Below, one piece after another: positions 1,452-35,488 of a stretch of 47,941 nt of DNA. Below the pieces are notes generated by a model. The model was given only the letters and a program-made list of their open reading frames with translations, was not told the DNA's origin and did no database searches. The DNA comes from Candidatus Levilactobacillus faecigallinarum (GTDB lineage: Bacteria; Bacillota; Bacilli; Lactobacillales; Lactobacillaceae), in the NCBI GenBank assembly GCA_019113985.1, contig DXGJ01000044.1, positions 1 to 47,941 of the forward strand. The letters run 5' to 3'. Made by a program: the position numbers and the translations under genes. Position 1 is the stretch's first letter, and each line of letters starts with the position of its first letter.

Positions 1452-1466
1452 CCATGAAGCTTCTGA

Positions 1467-1538
1467 TGCGCCCGGAGGGAATCGAACCCCCATTTCAAGA
1501 ACCGGAATCTTACGTGCGATCCATTACACTACGGGCGC
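1467..1538 (-). tRNA. tRNA-Arg (anticodon CCG), copy 1
   Basis: The 72-nt cloverleaf has a 7-bp acceptor stem (GCGCCCG / CGGGCGC), a 4-bp D stem with GG in its loop, an anticodon stem with loop TTCCGGT (CCG at positions 34-36) and a T arm with TTCGATT. The discriminator base is A and no CCA is encoded. It reads the arginine codon CGG. An identical copy lies at 2382-2453. Confidence 0.95.
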
Positions 1539-1567
1539 ATATCAAACAACCTCGATAACACTTAATT

Positions 1568-15696: not shown

Positions 15697-16344
15697 CTAA
15701 TTCTCCTCGTTGACGGGATTTAATAGTGAATTGGTTAGGGCCGCGAGCTTTTGCCGGTCACTGAAATCGGCGGACAGCAATTCGGGCAGCACCTTGTCCA
15801 GAAAGTATTGGACACAGGCCATTTGTTTAAACTGCAGGATGGTCGATAGGCTTTCCCGGTAGATTTCCGTGTAAACGGGTTCGGGATTGCCCTTCTGAAT
15901 CTCGCCGAAGGACTCGTAGAGCAGGTCGACCTTGTCAGAAACGGAGAGAATCTGCCCCTCTAGCGTATCGTCCTTACCTTCGCCCAGGCGCCGGGTATAG
16001 GCTTCCTGGAACTCTTCCGGGATTTCGTTTTGAATGAAGTTGGCGGTCAACGAATCCTCGACGTCCGCCAACATGTGGCGGAGCTCCGGTGTAGCGTACT
16101 TGACCGGCGTTTTGATGTCGCCGATGAACCGCTCGGTGTAATCGTGATTCAGCGACTTTTCGTAGAGCCGTTGCCAGTTGACGGTGTGACCAGCCTGTTC
16201 CTCAACGTCCCCCAGGAACTGTGCGACCTCGGCCACCTTGAAAGAATGGGCCGCAACGGAATGTTGCTCAAACTTGAAGTACCCCGGTGCTCGGTTAATC
16301 GTTTCCAAATCACTCAAACTTTGTAAAAACTGATTCATACCCAT
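15697..16344 (-). CDS. YfbR-like HD-domain phosphohydrolase (5'-nucleotidase type)
   Basis: This is a 215-residue HD-superfamily protein. Residues Arg18, His33, His67-Asp68, Glu71 and the GDIKTP turn at 75-80 line up closely with the metal and substrate residues of E. coli YfbR, a 5'-deoxyribonucleotidase. SVSDKVD near 134-140 supplies the last aspartate. It therefore probably removes phosphate from nucleoside monophosphates. It is first of a two-gene unit with the GNAT-like gene. Its leader contains structured element A, ending about 50 bases before its ATG. AAAGGGAG is the ribosome binding site. Confidence 0.78.
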   Translation of the reverse strand: MGMNQFLQSLSDLETINRAPGYFKFEQHSVAAHSFKVAEVAQFLGDVEEQAGHTVNWQRLYEKSLNHDYTERFIGDIKTPVKYATPELRHMLADVEDSLTANFIQNEIPEEFQEAYTRRLGEGKDDTLEGQILSVSDKVDLLYESFGEIQKGNPEPVYTEIYRESLSTILQFKQMACVQYFLDKVLPELLSADFSDRQKLAALTNSLLNPVNEEN

Positions 16345-16396
16345 CTGTTGAACTCCCTTTCTAACCGCTTAAAATTGTCCCCGCTACCCGTCCTCC

Positions 16397-16540
16397 GGGT
16401 GGTCCAGGAGGAGCGTGGTCGTGGTGGGCACGACTTGAAGCCAATCATAACCCGATTGTCTTCAAGCTCGACCTTTCTGTAAGCCGGGAAGGACCCCCGA
16501 CTAACAGAAATTTCACCACTTGGCCCCTCCTGGACCACCC
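16397..16540 (-). ncRNA. structured RNA element A (candidate new family; partner at 32577-32722)
   Basis: This is a 144-nt folded element. A perfect 15-bp closing helix joins 16397-16411 to 16526-16540. A GTGGTG/CACCAC helix (16421-16426 with 16514-16519) encloses two arms. One arm is CTTGAAG/CTTCAAG plus CAATC/GATTG (16434-16466). The other is TTTCTGT/ACAGAAA (16474-16510) with an inner CGGG/CCCG. Copy B has the same helices with different bases. The minus strand is favoured as RNA because helix variants are G-U there but A-C on the plus strand. It lies in the leader of the HD-GNAT unit and has no obvious terminator of its own. Confidence 0.7.
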
Positions 16541-16804
16541 TCCAGACTACACAGGTTTGATTCCCATGATTTTTTCGTAATACCCCATTACCAATTTCCG
16601 ACCGTCTGAATGTGAAAAATCCATCCAGCTAGTCATCAGATAATTGTTCTGAGGTTAGCGCGAAATCGCCGTCCTGTAAAGGTCTCGTGTATCTCAACTA
16701 ATCAACTCGTGTGCTTCATGTTGGTCCTAAATCGTGCTTATCCTTAATTGTACGGCTTTTCTGTCTGGACGTCATTCTATCTGTCCGGAGAAATGCCAAG
16801 TTTA

Positions 16805-16850: not shown

Positions 16851-17783
16851 TTATTTCGTAATCGACTTCAACGATTCCAGGTAAGCAAAGACTGCTTGCC
16901 CGGCCGTTCCACCTTCACCTACGGCCGTGGTAATCTGCCGTAAGTCCTTTTGGCGCACGTCACCGATAGCAAAGATACCATCAACTGCCGTTGCCATGTG
17001 GTCGTCGGTCTTGATCCAACCAGCATCGTCCGTAATACCTAAGCCCTTGAAAGCCTCGGTCATTGGTAACGTCCCCACGTAAATGAAGACCCCACTGGCG
17101 TCCAGGTGACCATCCTCACCCGTCTGGTTGTTATGCGTCGCAACCCCGGTGACCTTCATATCATCACCCTGGATCTCTGTCACATTGGTGTTCCAAACAA
17201 ATTCGATCTTGTCGTTGGCGAAAGCTCGGTCCTGAATGACCTTTTGAGCCCGTAATTGGTCCCGGCGTACCACGATGGTCACCTTGGAAGCCAAACCGGC
17301 CAGGTAAAGCCCCTCTTCAACAGCGGAGTCCCCACCACCAACTACGATAACTTCACGGTTCTTAAAGAAGGCCCCGTCGCAGACCGCGCAGTAGGAGACC
17401 CCACGGCCACCATACGCATCCTCGCCAGGCACGCCAAGTTTCTTGTACTCGGACCCAGTGGCCACGATGACCGCCTTCGCCGCATAATCACCATCATCCG
17501 TCTTCACGACCTTATGATCGCCATGATCCTCGATGGCCTCAACGCTCCCGTAGGCAAATTCAGCCCCAAATTGGGTTGAGCCCTCGTACATGTCCTTCGC
17601 CAAGTCTGGTCCTAAGACCGACTTGAACCCCGGATAGTTTTCAATGGCTGCCGTGTTGTTCATCTGCCCACCGTAGATACCACGGTCGAGCATCAGGACG
17701 GACAGGTTGGCCCGCGATGCGTACAACGCACCGGTCATGCCGCCTGGTCCCGCGCCAATTACAATTACATCATAGTTTTTCAA
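16851..17783 (-). CDS. trxB: thioredoxin-disulfide reductase
   Basis: The 310-residue FAD/NADPH flavoprotein keeps thioredoxin reduced. It has the FAD-binding GAGPGGMTGALYASRA (10-25), redox cysteines Cys132 and Cys135 in YCAVCDGAFF, the NADPH-binding VVGGGDSAVEE, and a C-terminal GIFAIGDVRQK FAD site. Length is normal. It follows galU on the same strand after a 68-base gap and ends at its own strong terminator. Confidence 0.97.
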   Translation of the reverse strand: MKNYDVIVIGAGPGGMTGALYASRANLSVLMLDRGIYGGQMNNTAAIENYPGFKSVLGPDLAKDMYEGSTQFGAEFAYGSVEAIEDHGDHKVVKTDDGDYAAKAVIVATGSEYKKLGVPGEDAYGGRGVSYCAVCDGAFFKNREVIVVGGGDSAVEEGLYLAGLASKVTIVVRRDQLRAQKVIQDRAFANDKIEFVWNTNVTEIQGDDMKVTGVATHNNQTGEDGHLDASGVFIYVGTLPMTEAFKGLGITDDAGWIKTDDHMATAVDGIFAIGDVRQKDLRQITTAVGEGGTAGQAVFAYLESLKSITK

Positions 17784-31367: not shown

Positions 31368-32484
31368 TTAATCCGGGTTCTTCTGGCTCAACTGCCACTG
31401 CAAGAAGGCGTCGATGAAGGGATCGAGATCCCCGTCCATCACATTTTGCCCCTGGCTGGTCTCGTAGTTGGTCCGATGATCCTTGACCATGGTGTAAGGG
31501 TGGAAGACGTAGGAGCGAATCTGCGACCCCCAACCAATGTCCATCTGGTCGCCTTCCAGGGCGGCCTTCTCCTGGGCCTTCTTCTCTTCTTCCCGTTCGT
31601 AAAGTTTGGCCCGCAACATCCCCATGGCCGTCTGCCGGTTCTGGAGTTGTGACCGTTGGGCCTGACTCTGGGTCACGATCCCCGTCGGCAAGTGGGTGAT
31701 TCGAACGGCCGAAGACGTCTTGTTGACGTGTTGGCCCCCGGCCCCGGATGCCCGGTAAACGTCGACTTTCAAGTCGGCCGGGTTGATTTCAACGTCGACC
31801 GAATCATCGAGTTCCGGTAAAACGTCAATGGAAGCAAATGAGGTGTGTCGACGTCCCGCTGAATCAAACGGCGAGATGCGGACCAGCCGGTGAACACCCT
31901 TCTCGGACCGTAAGTACCCGTAAGCGTTGTGCCCAGCAATCAAGAGGGTCGCGCTACTTAACCCGGCAACTTCGCCCGGTTGGTAGTCCAAGATGGTCAC
32001 CTTAAAATGATGCTGGTCAGCCCACCGTTGATACATCCGCATCAGCATCGCGCCCCAGTCTTGGGATTCGGTGCCGCCAGCGCCCGGATGAATTTCCAAG
32101 ATGGCGTTATTGCGGTCGTACTTCTGGTTCAACAGGAGGTTCAGTCGGTATTGCCGCAGGGCCTCCTGGGTCGTGGCGAAGTTCTCCTCGAATTCCGCCT
32201 GCATGTCGGCGTCGGGCTCGTCGCTCAGCAATTCCACGGCAACGTCGAGGTCGTCAACACTGTTGGCGAGTTGCTGGAACTCGTCGACCTTCTTCTTCAT
32301 GTCGTTGGTCTCGTCGATCAACCCCTGGGCCTTCTGGGCATCATCCCAGAACCCCGGCTCCGCCATCTGGGCCTCGTTGACCTCAATGCTCTCGTTCAGG
32401 GCATCAAAGTCAAAGCGACCTCCTAAAGCCGGCTAATTGGTCACGCATGGTACTAATGTCACGTTTTGCATCACTTAATTCCAT
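31368..32484 (-). CDS. prfB: peptide chain release factor 2, expressed by programmed +1 frameshift
   Basis: Release factor 2 (371 aa after the shift) ends translation at UGA and UAA. The SPF tripeptide (RISPFDSAGRR) that reads the stop codon and the GGQ of SGAGGQHVNK are present. The ATG is at 32484 with AAGGAG upstream. Codons 1-24 run to CTT, then TGA at 32412-32410 is codon 25; the ribosome slips +1 on CTTTGAC and continues LDFDALNESI into the long frame. An AGGAGG (32419-32424) lies three bases before the slip site, the classic stimulator. The shift autoregulates RF2. Confidence 0.95.
32409..32424 (-). promoter_or_regulatory. RF2 frameshift site (internal Shine-Dalgarno + CTTTGAC)
   Basis: Reading on the minus strand: AGGAGG (32424-32419), three bases TCG, then CTT-TGA-C (32415-32409). 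It is the canonical autoregulatory slip signal. Confidence 0.95.
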
Positions 32485-32543: not shown

Positions 32544-32576
32544 AAAAAACAAAAGCTTGTGGAAGCTTCCGCTTCC
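32544..32576 (-). promoter_or_regulatory. two mutually exclusive hairpins with U-tract between element B and prfB
   Basis: Hairpin 1 is GGAAGC/GCTTCC (32571-32576 with 32561-32566, four-base loop). Hairpin 2 is AAGCTT/AAGCTT (32563-32568 with 32553-32558, four-base loop), followed on the minus strand by TTG and six T. They share 32563-32566, so only one can form. The arrangement resembles an antiterminator/terminator pair; stems are short, so this is tentative. Confidence 0.45.
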
Positions 32577-32722
32577 GGGGCGGTTCTGGGGGGCCGTGTC
32601 CGTGGTGGGCACGACTTGAAGCCTCACAAAATTCGTGAGTCTCCAAGCTCGGCCTTTGTGTAAGCCGGGAAAATCCCCCGACTAACACAAACTTCACCAC
32701 TCTGGCCCCCCAGAACCGCCCC
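32577..32722 (-). ncRNA. structured RNA element B (partner of 16397-16540)
   Basis: This 146-nt element has the same architecture as element A. A perfect 19-bp closing helix joins 32577-32595 to 32704-32722. GTGGTG/CACCAC is at 32602-32607 and 32695-32700. One arm is CTTGAAG/CTCCAAG plus CTCAC/GTGAG (32615-32647). The other is TTTGTGT/ACACAAA (32655-32691). Helix bases differ from A but pairing is kept, while GGGCACGACTTGAAGCC and GTAAGCCGGGAA are shared. It sits between secA and prfB, 93 bases before the prfB ATG. Immediately upstream on the minus strand, CATGGAC/GTCCATG (32732-32779) may form another stem. Confidence 0.7.
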
Positions 32723-33081
32723 TCCAGCTAACATGGACTTTGCCCATTACAGGACAGGTCGCTCATCATTCGGTCCATGAAAACCACCACTGCCATTACT
32801 TAGCGGCTAATAAGCAACCGCCGGCAAAAAATTCTACTCCATTATTCTCAACTTAAAATTGTCGTTGAGCAGCTCATCGCGAGATTCGGCACAATTTAAA
32901 TAACAAGCAGTATGTCTCACTAACAACTGATAATCAGGTAACTTGCGCTATCATCGGTACCCAATTAAACCGAGTGCGGTAACTGGGAATCTGGCCCTGC
33001 CGCAAACTGACCAAACCAGTGAAACAGTCTACCGTAAGATTGTCAGTCTATTCTTACAACCGTCGCTCTCGCTCATTTCGC

Positions 33082-33124: not shown

Positions 33125-35488
33125 TTAACGGGTAATGTTTTGTCGAATTTCAGACTTCATGAAGAGTCGCGTTGAATCGTAATCGATGTCGGAAATCATT
33201 TCTTCGAACATCCGGAACCCATCTTGTTGGTATTCAACCAACGGGTTCAGTTGTCCGTAACCCCGCAACCCAATCGATTGTCGTAACTGGTCCATCGCAT
33301 CGATGTGGTCCGTCCAGTGTGAGTCGACGACCCGCAGCAGCACAACCTTTTCGAATTCCAGCATTTGGGCTGGGTCGTAAAGTTGCTTAGCCTTTTCGTC
33401 GTAAACGTCGTTCGCCAGACCCATGAAGTAGTCGATGATTTCATCGGCGGTCTTGTCCTTCAAGTCAGCCAAGCTGATCTTGTCAGGCGAAACCATTGCC
33501 GAGATTCCGAAATCAAGCAACGTATCCAGATCCCAATCGGCCTGTTCGCCCTGCGTATGCAGGTTGACCACCCGGGTCACGGTCCGCTTGATCATTGGCA
33601 TCAAGACCCACTTCAGGGACTTGTCCTGTTGAATAATCTGGTTCCGTTCGCCGTAGATGACGTTCCGTTGTTGCCGCATCACATCATCATATTGCAAGAC
33701 GTTCTTCCGGGAATCGTAGTTGTTCCCTTCAACCCGCTTTTGGGCGGATTCGACTTGCTTGGTGATCATCCGGCTCCGAATAACAGCATCTTCACCGTCA
33801 ACGTTCATCCGTTGCAGGAAGTCTTTAACCCGGTCGGAACCGAAACGCCGCATCAGGTCATCTTCCAGTGACAGGTAGAACTGGGTCATACCAGGGTCAC
33901 CCTGCCGGCCAGAACGGCCACGCAGTTGGTTATCGATTCGCCGAGATTCGTGACGTTCCGTCCCAATAACGGCCAAACCACCCAATTCAACCACGCCGGG
34001 TCCCAACTTGATGTCGGTCCCCCGTCCAGCCATGTTGGTGGCGATGGTAACGGCACCCCGTTGACCAGCGTTCTGGATAATGTCGGCTTCCTTCGCGTGG
34101 TTCTTGGCGTTCAAGACCACGTGCGGAATGTTCTCTTGATCCAACCGTTCGGAGAGGTACTCGGAGGTTTCAACCGCCACGGTACCAATCAACATTGGTT
34201 GGCCCTTTTCGTGCAGATTCTTGATTTCACGGACAACCGCATCAAACTTGGACTCCAAGGTTGGGTACAACACATCGGGATGGTCGACCCGGACAACCGG
34301 CTTGTTGGTTGGCACGGTGATGACTTCCATGTTGTAGATTTCCCGGAATTCTTCGGCTTCGGTCTTGGCCGTCCCCGTCATCCCGGCTAACTTGGCGTAC
34401 ATCCGGAACAAGTTTTGGTACGTGATGTTGGCCATGGTCTTGGTCTCTTCTTGAATCTCGACGCCTTCCTTAGCTTCGATGGCTTGGTGCAGCCCGTCGG
34501 AGTAGCGCCGACCTTCCATGACCCGCCCCGTAAAGGAATCGACGATCAAGACTTCGCCGTCTTGAACCACGTAGTCCTTATCGCGGAGCATAATAAAGTT
34601 CGCCCGTAAGGCTTGATCCATATGGTGGGTCAAGGCGGTGTTGTCCGTGTCATACAGGTTCTTCAAGTTGAAGTATTTTTCGGCCTTTTCGATTCCTGAG
34701 TCGGTCAAAGCAACCGTCTTGGATTCCAGGTCGATCTTAAAGTCTTCTTTTTCGTGGAGCGTCTTGGCGAACCGGTCGACCCGCTTGTAGAGCTGGCTGG
34801 TCCCTTCGGACTGTCCAGAAATGATCAACGGTGTCCGGGCCTCATCGATTAAGATGGAGTCCACTTCGTCGACGATGGCGAAGCTCAGTGGCCGTTGAAC
34901 CATGTCTTCTTTGTAAACCACCATGTTATCCCGCAGGTAATCGAACCCGATCTCCCCGTTGGTGGAGTACGTGATGTCGGCCTTGTAGGCTTCACGCTTC
35001 TCATCTGGTGTCTTTTCAGCGGAGTTCAAGCCCACCGTTAAGCCCATCCAGTTGTACAGCTCGCCCATTTCGGTCGCGTCCCGTGCAGACAGGTATTCGT
35101 TAACCGTGACGACGTGAACACCCTTGCCAGCGATGGCGTTTAAATAAACGGGCATCGTGGCGGTCAGAGTCTTCCCTTCACCGGTCTTCATTTCGGCGAT
35201 GTTCCCTTCGTGAAGAACAATCCCCCCCATGATTTGCACATGGAATGGGTACAGGCCTAAGACCCGGCGTGCACCTTCACGACATGCAGCAAAGGCCTCA
35301 GGTAACAGATCATCCAAGGTCTCGCCATCTTGATACCGTTGCTTAAATTCTGGCGTTTTTGCCTTCAAATCTTCATCTGAAAGCTGTTCATATTCATCAG
35401 CGTAGGCGCCAACCTGATCCGCTAATTTACTGAGGCGTCGTAAAGTTCGTCGATCACTTTCGACCCATCGTTTCAAAATATTTGCCAT
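33125..35488 (-). CDS. secA: preprotein translocase ATPase SecA
   Basis: The 787-residue motor drives Sec export through SecYEG. Walker [13 protein letters not shown] lies near 101-112. [14 protein letters not shown] is Walker B, and the second helicase domain has [12 protein letters not shown] and the arginine fingers in [13 protein letters not shown]. It ends at SEIRQNITR without the C-terminal zinc-binding tail seen in many SecA proteins; this short form is usual in lactobacilli as far as I know. It lies between hpf and prfB, the conserved order. Confidence 0.97.

Follow-up and report, generated by a model that had tools for sequence, protein, structure and literature searches.

In the window analysed here, a stretch of 47,941 nucleotides of contig DXGJ01000044.1 from Candidatus Levilactobacillus faecigallinarum (assembly GCA_019113985.1), two non-coding elements, termed A and B, lie between genes encoded on the minus strand (Table 1). 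An earlier note on this DNA had placed A at positions 16397–16540 and B at 32577–32722, within gene-free gaps of 500–640 bases, and both elements and their helices were found at these places. The gap harboring A, from trxB to the YfbR-like gene, comprises 506 bp, and the gap harboring B, from secA to prfB, comprises 640 bp. When copies are aligned, the flanks of A are similar to those conserved in related single copies, and the ends of B are common to the copies L002–L004 with nothing clear shared beyond them (by eye). The fold had been drawn on the plus strand. However, the minus strand folds better in both elements, the z-scores for plus and minus strand being −7.8 and −10.2 for A and −9.5 and −11.3 for B, values not equalled by any of 200 dinucleotide shuffles. 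In the following, copies are turned to the minus-strand sense of the window, called the R sense. The prfB gene carries a programmed-frameshift site (AGGAGG TCG CTTTGA, within window positions 32390–32484), and this motif is present in all 30 prfB loci.

Table 1. Elements A and B and their neighbouring genes in the window
Feature	Position	Strand	Basis
Element A, extended	16384..16549	minus	outer stem 16397–16411 and 16526–16540, plus flanks; sequence, folds and alignment of copies
Element A, conserved three-way-junction core	16419..16523	minus	covariance model R1, 104.9 bits, E 5.3e-21
Element B, extended	32569..32731	minus	outer stem and conserved flanks TTAGCTGGAG ... CGGAAGCGG (minus-strand sense); sequence and folds
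Element B, conserved three-way-junction core	32600..32704	minus	covariance model R1, 113.5 bits, E 5.6e-23
trxB-like gene (name presumed), upstream of A	16851..17783	minus	Pfam Pyr_redox_2, thioredoxin-reductase-like
5′-deoxynucleotidase YfbR-like gene, downstream of A	15697..16344	minus	Pfam
secA, upstream of B	33125..35488	minus	Pfam SecA domains
prfB (presumably release factor 2), downstream of B	31368..32484	minus	Pfam PCRF and RF-1; start taken from the 640-bp gap

The earlier note regarded B as a partner of A 16 kb away. B does exist as a look-alike of A, but it is just one of the 71 matches that the covariance model R1 (107 positions) finds in this genome (G000), a 1.76-Mb draft of 65 contigs and 72% completeness in which blastn with B gives 43 places. 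Including G000, 33 of 35 genomes of the genus have R1 matches; 28 of the 35 have at least 50 matches, G015 has 11, and G021 and G031 have none. In the family, matches were found in 27 of 121 genomes and in 10 of the 40 genera sampled, with 1 to at least 32 matches each. No match was obtained in 23 genomes from other families of the order or, with nine candidates scored per genome, in 397 further genomes sampled from the phylum. As 67, 32 or 9 candidates per genome were scored in the multi-genome searches, the copy numbers from these searches are lower bounds and weak matches may be lost. A pattern scan of named genomes gave at least 107 stretches, and R1 was run on 80 and 57 of its loci; Levilactobacillus, Companilactobacillus, Lapidilactobacillus, Schleiferilactobacillus, Pediococcus, Lacticaseibacillus and Limosilactobacillus are among the matches listed, in a sample of species that is biased because the scan favours copies close to the pattern. 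One pattern match, on a Hydrogenedentota contig (L101), has no R1 match and was taken as chance.

Most of the counts given below (clusters, neighbouring open reading frames, outer stems, ISLre2 ends, CAACGAC motifs, nearest neighbours and terminators) are based on 230 copies from 107 sources, in which G000 is represented by the copies in 20 fetched regions and in the window, and in which genes are crude open reading frames. Eight weak or cut-off matches (L092, L095, L099, L100, L120, L122, L124 and L166) were left out of this set, none of which would create a plus-then-minus cluster. Of 227 copies, 196 have their nearest neighbour within their own species (28 on average and at most 46 after shuffling) and 221 within their own genus; judged by these sequence comparisons, a species-specific amplification of a dispersed repeat appears largely shown.

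In 27 aligned cores the junction and loop bases are invariant and the stems are highly variable, which bears out the earlier statement that conserved bases surround a three-way junction. RNAalifold on these cores yields one three-way junction of 36 pairs, 21 of them with double changes. Pairing was assessed in three alignments: A1 with 27 copies, A2 with 60 copies from this genome and A3 with 121 copies from other species, where A2 and A3 were aligned to R1 and therefore lean towards its structure. The pair cells are paired to 98.0% in A1, 97.7% in A2 and 96.8% in A3, as compared to 84.3, 82.9 and 73.7% after shuffling and to 27–46% in controls with a slid structure (A1–A3). In A3, 32 of the 36 pairs have double changes, and in none of the three alignments did any of 500 shuffles match the observed value on any of five measures. 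Thus, the helix covariation that had been noticed between A and B extends well past these two copies, and the proposed route of building a covariance model and searching lactobacillus genomes leads to homologues with strong covariation. In 226 copies the median length of the outer stem is 21 pairs, compared to 7 with random flanks.

The wobble pairs are unequally distributed between the strands. Read in the R sense, A1 has 60 G–U against 5 A–C cells, and 24 of the 27 copies favour this sense and none the opposite one. The bias is weaker in A3, with 117 G–U against 46 A–C; here 64 copies support it, 17 run counter to it and 40 are balanced. In addition, the R strand is the better folding one in 189 of 226 copies. 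One strand, that of the R sense, seems to be the functional one as judged from the sequences, and an RNA or a folded single strand of DNA would fit the bias equally well. At the centre of helix P2 each of the four Watson–Crick pairs is frequent and wobble pairs occupy 2 of 484 cells; this scarcity may reflect a strict helix geometry or a correction of one arm by the other. Taken at the level of sequence, we consider these data clean evidence that selection acts on the shape and not on the sequence within what appears to be a mobile repeat. Hence, of the signature of selection on folded RNA proposed in the earlier note, selection on a folded strand is supported by covariation and strand-biased wobble, whereas the firm reading as RNA is not supported.

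We could not assign the elements to a recognised family, in agreement with the earlier note. Rfam 15 on the window gave two tRNAs at threshold, both tRNA-Arg (ccg) genes with equal Rfam scores, which lie 915 bp apart on the same strand (window positions 1465–1539 and 2380–2454). For A and B only sub-threshold matches were obtained up to E 10, the best being nqrA-II with 25.1 bits where 55 are needed, and nine loci from other species and subtypes gave no match. In those parts of the literature that were accessible no account of this repeat was found, and a description elsewhere is possible; in the accessible part of PMC3733652 no mention of Lactobacill, Firmicutes or Pediococcus was found. As far as these searches show, we are dealing with a large repeat family in lactobacilli that is unnamed.

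The copies occur alone or in pairs of a defined geometry. The 230 copies form 145 clusters in 107 sources, of which 66 are single copies, 75 contain both orientations and 4 contain one orientation only. All of the 75 mixed clusters run minus then plus, i.e., they are divergent in the R sense, and the folded strand points outward with its 3′ end on both sides. The same holds for 16 of 16 mixed clusters among 29 additional loci, of which two probably repeat places already counted in the named genomes. The space between two paired copies is variable: 20 pair centres of 96–635 bp have in common short end matches and two paralogous centre pairs only, and a shared gene was discarded as their content. 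In two paralogous units of this genome element, centre and element are homologous with 83% identity over 589 bp, and the homology stops at the outer stems, which fits a unit whose ends are the elements themselves.

Of 123 units, 73 lie in co-directional, 34 in convergent and 16 in divergent gaps, with a mild enrichment of convergent gaps (34/123 vs 107/628, p 0.008). Among same-strand neighbouring open reading frames only an ISLre2 pair recurs upstream (25 frames) and only two distant pairs with 26 and 35% identity recur downstream (72 frames). Over 212 copies, terminator-like sites facing the element number 35 on the outward side and 4 on the inner side, with 8 in random pieces, and outward-side sites pointing away from the element number 12, with 13 in random pieces. 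The motif CAACGAC was rejected as a general end motif, being present in 22 of 51 copies of this genome, once on the inner side, in 2 of 67 from other Levilactobacillus and in none of 104 from elsewhere.

Comparison of corresponding gaps between genomes reveals turnover of the sites. The secA–prfB gap varies from 75 to 884 bp among 30 genomes. It contains an R1 match of at least 75 bits in G000, G024, G022 (a pair) and G002, weaker matches in G014 (44.5 bits), G020 (32.0 bits) and G011 (19.9 bits), and four-way-junction relatives of the element in G003, G014, G017, G026 and G011; 18 of the 30 gaps are shorter than 300 bp and have no R1 match. One of these 18, that of G018, looks to the eye like what a deletion has left of the G002 copy. 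At 30 trxB–YfbR loci a strong match is found in G000 only, with weak matches on the same side in G003 (24.7 bits) and G023 (35.7 bits); among the 15 of 30 gap sequences inspected, G003 has a four-way relative and G030 possibly a truncated one (by eye). Since the element is missing from these sites in many sister species and neighbouring genes hardly recur, a leader role for prfB or the YfbR-like gene was set aside, and it is unlikely that A and B are leaders specific to these genes.

Several copies are carried by mobile elements. With B as query, blastn detects 4 of 72,556 plasmid records, all of them mobilizable plasmids, three from L. brevis and one from L. plantarum. In two of the four the element is located past the stop codon of an ISLre2-family transposase and before the right end, and it has the same sense as this gene (NCBIfam 351.5 bits for the L. 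brevis protein). These two units of about 1.7 kb (1.74 kb), one from L. brevis and one from L. plantarum, share 98.7% identity, and in the latter the transposase frame is interrupted. Transposase and ends are found together on one unit in L308, and L309 has a unit of the same type with an interrupted frame. At other ISLre2 loci the ends are accompanied by 9-bp duplications, which are exact in L324, L326 and L327 and were recognised by eye in L321 and L323. Ten copies with 81–98% identity over about 200–345 bp were found in G105, a genome in one contig that belongs to another genus; of these copies of ~330 nt, eight have an ISLre2-like right end and six a clear ISLre2-like left end, and a 9-bp direct repeat was found at one, L294, the sole case among the copies with both ends. 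In the wider set only 5 of 235 copies, namely those of the two ISLre2 elements and the three G105 copies in this set, have an ISLre2-like right end, and no copy in the window does. L. bayanensis has yet another arrangement with units of ~0.5 kb that have inverted ends and two elements each; a target-site duplication was sought in 14 of these units and none was found.

An IS110-derived unit is a further carrier. In G022 a 416-bp insert comprising the C-terminus of an IS110 transposase, the element and an IS110-like right end is absent from G024, whose flanks of the empty site match G022 at 98 and 96% with a 3-bp overlap that may be a shared A run. It occurs at two places in G022 as well as in G012 and G005, with 92–96% identity between these units. 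In most of the cases compared, several of which are the same place, its right end is followed by an AAAGAG- or AAAGGAG-like stretch. At L348, L349 and L356 the unit abuts an A run followed by a terminator-like hairpin, which suggests that such a site is its preferred target. In both the ISLre2 and the IS110-derived cases the folded strand lies downstream of the transposase or its remnant in the same sense.

The one empty site obtained is that of the IS110-derived carrier. It weighs against a mobile repeat that A, B and the plain single copies yielded neither an empty site nor a target duplication; between two L. brevis plasmids compared for an empty site the sole difference cuts through one copy. 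Terminal inverted repeats were not identified for A, B or the Levilactobacillus pairs, whose ends are the elements themselves.

None of the transposases tested follows the repeat in its distribution. ISLre2 as general mover was rejected, as its transposase is above the cut-off in 0 of 33 genus genomes and in 8 of 121 family genomes, only two of which have the repeat; nine ISLre2 loci from these 8 genomes gave no R1 match up to E 5. Mobilisation by Y1/RAYT proteins was rejected as well: 11 of 33 genus genomes are devoid of Y1 and all 11, G000 among them, have the repeat, and Y1 is present in G021 and G031, which are without the repeat. Phage cargo was discarded on the basis of 50,697 phage records without blastn match and viral contigs without exact pattern match. 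Together with the finding of IS110 remnants of this kind in only 8 of 35 genus genomes, the ISLre2 and Y1 results argue that the module is not tied to one transposase. Either it moves on its own or it was captured repeatedly.

Based on these observations we suggest that A and B are probably copies of a non-coding, structure-conserved mobile repeat of the Lactobacillaceae that spreads non-autonomously. Its core is the ~107-nt three-way junction, closed by a long outer stem that varies between copies yet stays paired, and it seems to be read on one strand, the minus strand in the window. The repeat would have spread alone or as divergent pairs around a variable centre with the elements as outer ends, and also as a module inside an ISLre2-family insertion sequence, ISLre2-ended MITEs, an IS110-derived unit and a MITE with its own terminal repeats. 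The fold would persist because a copy has to be well folded to be mobilised or tolerated, be it as RNA or as single-stranded DNA end. If a terminal module is read as one strand, be it as outward transcript or as 3′-end strand, a strand bias and an outward direction like those observed are to be expected. The earlier note had set its RNA family against a transposable palindrome. A dispersed repeat with patchy sites that is lodged in several kinds of mobile element is largely what we find, the structured family stands as well, and both descriptions seem to be true.

The conserved fold could also belong to a stand-alone structured RNA with a cellular function, a cis-regulator or sRNA, that is not mobile. 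We regard this as unlikely. The covariation, the strand-biased wobble, the conserved unpaired junction bases and the better folding R strand are in accord with it, as are two promoter-like sites near A, where shuffles give 0.3; one of the two, at 16775–16747, precedes A on the minus strand. Near B, however, there is a single such site, on the plus strand, with 0.8 expected. Copy numbers that range from at least 50 in most genomes of the genus to 11 and to zero, the scarcity of recurring neighbours and the occurrence in co-directional, convergent and divergent gaps alike do not suit a cellular RNA. Less probable still is that the fold is a guide (bridge or seek) RNA of the IS110 family and that the copies are relics of such elements. 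At several G022 loci an IS110 C-terminus does lie ahead of the element and in its sense, these loci and the full-length IS110 of G019 have a right end like CTTGACTAAACGTAGG in common, and 17 of 27 fetched IS110 remnant loci have an R1 match. On the other side, the ten loci without match include the full-length, Pfam-confirmed IS110 (L352) and the long frames L355 and L357, no match being found beside any of these three; the remnant was not found in this genome, and the module also resides inside an ISLre2 element whose transposase belongs to another Pfam family.

A DNA-level palindrome deserves more weight, and we consider it a real possibility, if short of an even chance. Here the arms would be kept paired by inverted-repeat correction, or a cruciform or hairpin would be needed by a transposase, with no role for RNA. 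The mobile contexts, the long outer stems and the near absence of wobble in P2 speak for it; the strand bias of the wobble pairs, which a folded single DNA strand also fits, and the conserved loop bases speak against it. Gene conversion or inverted-repeat correction could in any case contribute to the species clustering and the paired arms of the mobile repeat that we favour. Going one step further, we tentatively consider, as a rather doubtful possibility, that the repeat is a selfish portable structured RNA (or folded single DNA strand) that is lodged 3′ of the coding region in unrelated insertion sequences (ISLre2 and IS110-derived) as well as in MITEs, that also moves alone or in outward-facing pairs, and whose junction shape is recognised by a mobility factor while the sequence is free to change.

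Among known systems, MITEs resemble the repeat in several respects. The repeat is short, non-coding, intergenic, non-autonomous and present in many copies (71 genome matches; 20 centres without shared gene), with ISLre2-type ends and terminal inverted repeats in the G105 copies and terminal inverted repeats in the L. bayanensis units. An autonomous relative that supplies the ends is found for the ISLre2-ended copies and, as to the right end, for the IS110-derived unit, and none was found for the rest. Unlike MITEs, the repeat has a complex three-way junction with covarying arms, a one-strand bias, carriers from unrelated families and no recognised transposase ends on plain copies. The REP/BIME repeats, which are linked to RAYT proteins (Y1 HUH transposases), are high-copy intergenic palindromes often found in inverted pairs, and so is the present repeat. 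It differs in size, with a ~107-nt junction and a long stem compared to the 20–40 bp given for REP in the accessible part of PMC3733652. In addition, the presence of Y1 transposases does not follow the repeat. IS110-family bridge RNAs and IS1111 seekRNAs are non-coding RNAs encoded in the end of full-length elements. The repeat likewise is a structured non-coding segment beside an IS110-type transposase remnant, but no R1 match was found beside the full-length IS110 examined, and the repeat also occurs in ISLre2 elements. The guide RNAs (omega or reRNA) of IS200/IS605 and IS607 are structured segments near the transposon end downstream of a protein gene; the repeat shares this position 3′ of a protein gene, and the carriers observed for it are ISLre2 and IS110 elements.

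The repeat family occurs in bacteria that include food species and would account for many unannotated intergenic gaps. Recognising its copies would avoid mistaking them for riboswitches of adjacent genes. If the fold is read by a mobility enzyme or a host factor, it would provide a testable system for structure-recognised transposition, and if it is transcribed, one genome may hold dozens of paralogous structured RNAs.

Some related structures were observed in passing. The four-way-junction relatives (L234, L235, L239, L240, L241 and L261) resemble the element in their outer internal loop and have one hairpin more. Between the four-way copies of G026 and G011 at secA–prfB one arm differs, each keeps a mismatch and there is no compensated pair (by eye), which weighs against the reading favoured here. 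If the repeat is a selfish unit, these relatives would make up another branch of its superfamily. In another ISLre2 element (L326, L327 and L321, from G112, G151 and a Loigolactobacillus backii plasmid) the 3′ region is folded and contains blocks similar to those of the repeat (GTGTCG, CTTAG and CGACCCAC); this region gives no R1 match at the three loci and is possibly a distant relative of the repeat. Finally, the secA–prfB gaps of G019 (L244), G007 (L236) and G001 (L237), which are without R1 match, contain a second type of repeat with blocks like GCGAGCATTAACG ... GTTAAGCGGAAC ... CACGTTTCGGCAA (by eye), present twice in tandem in G019.
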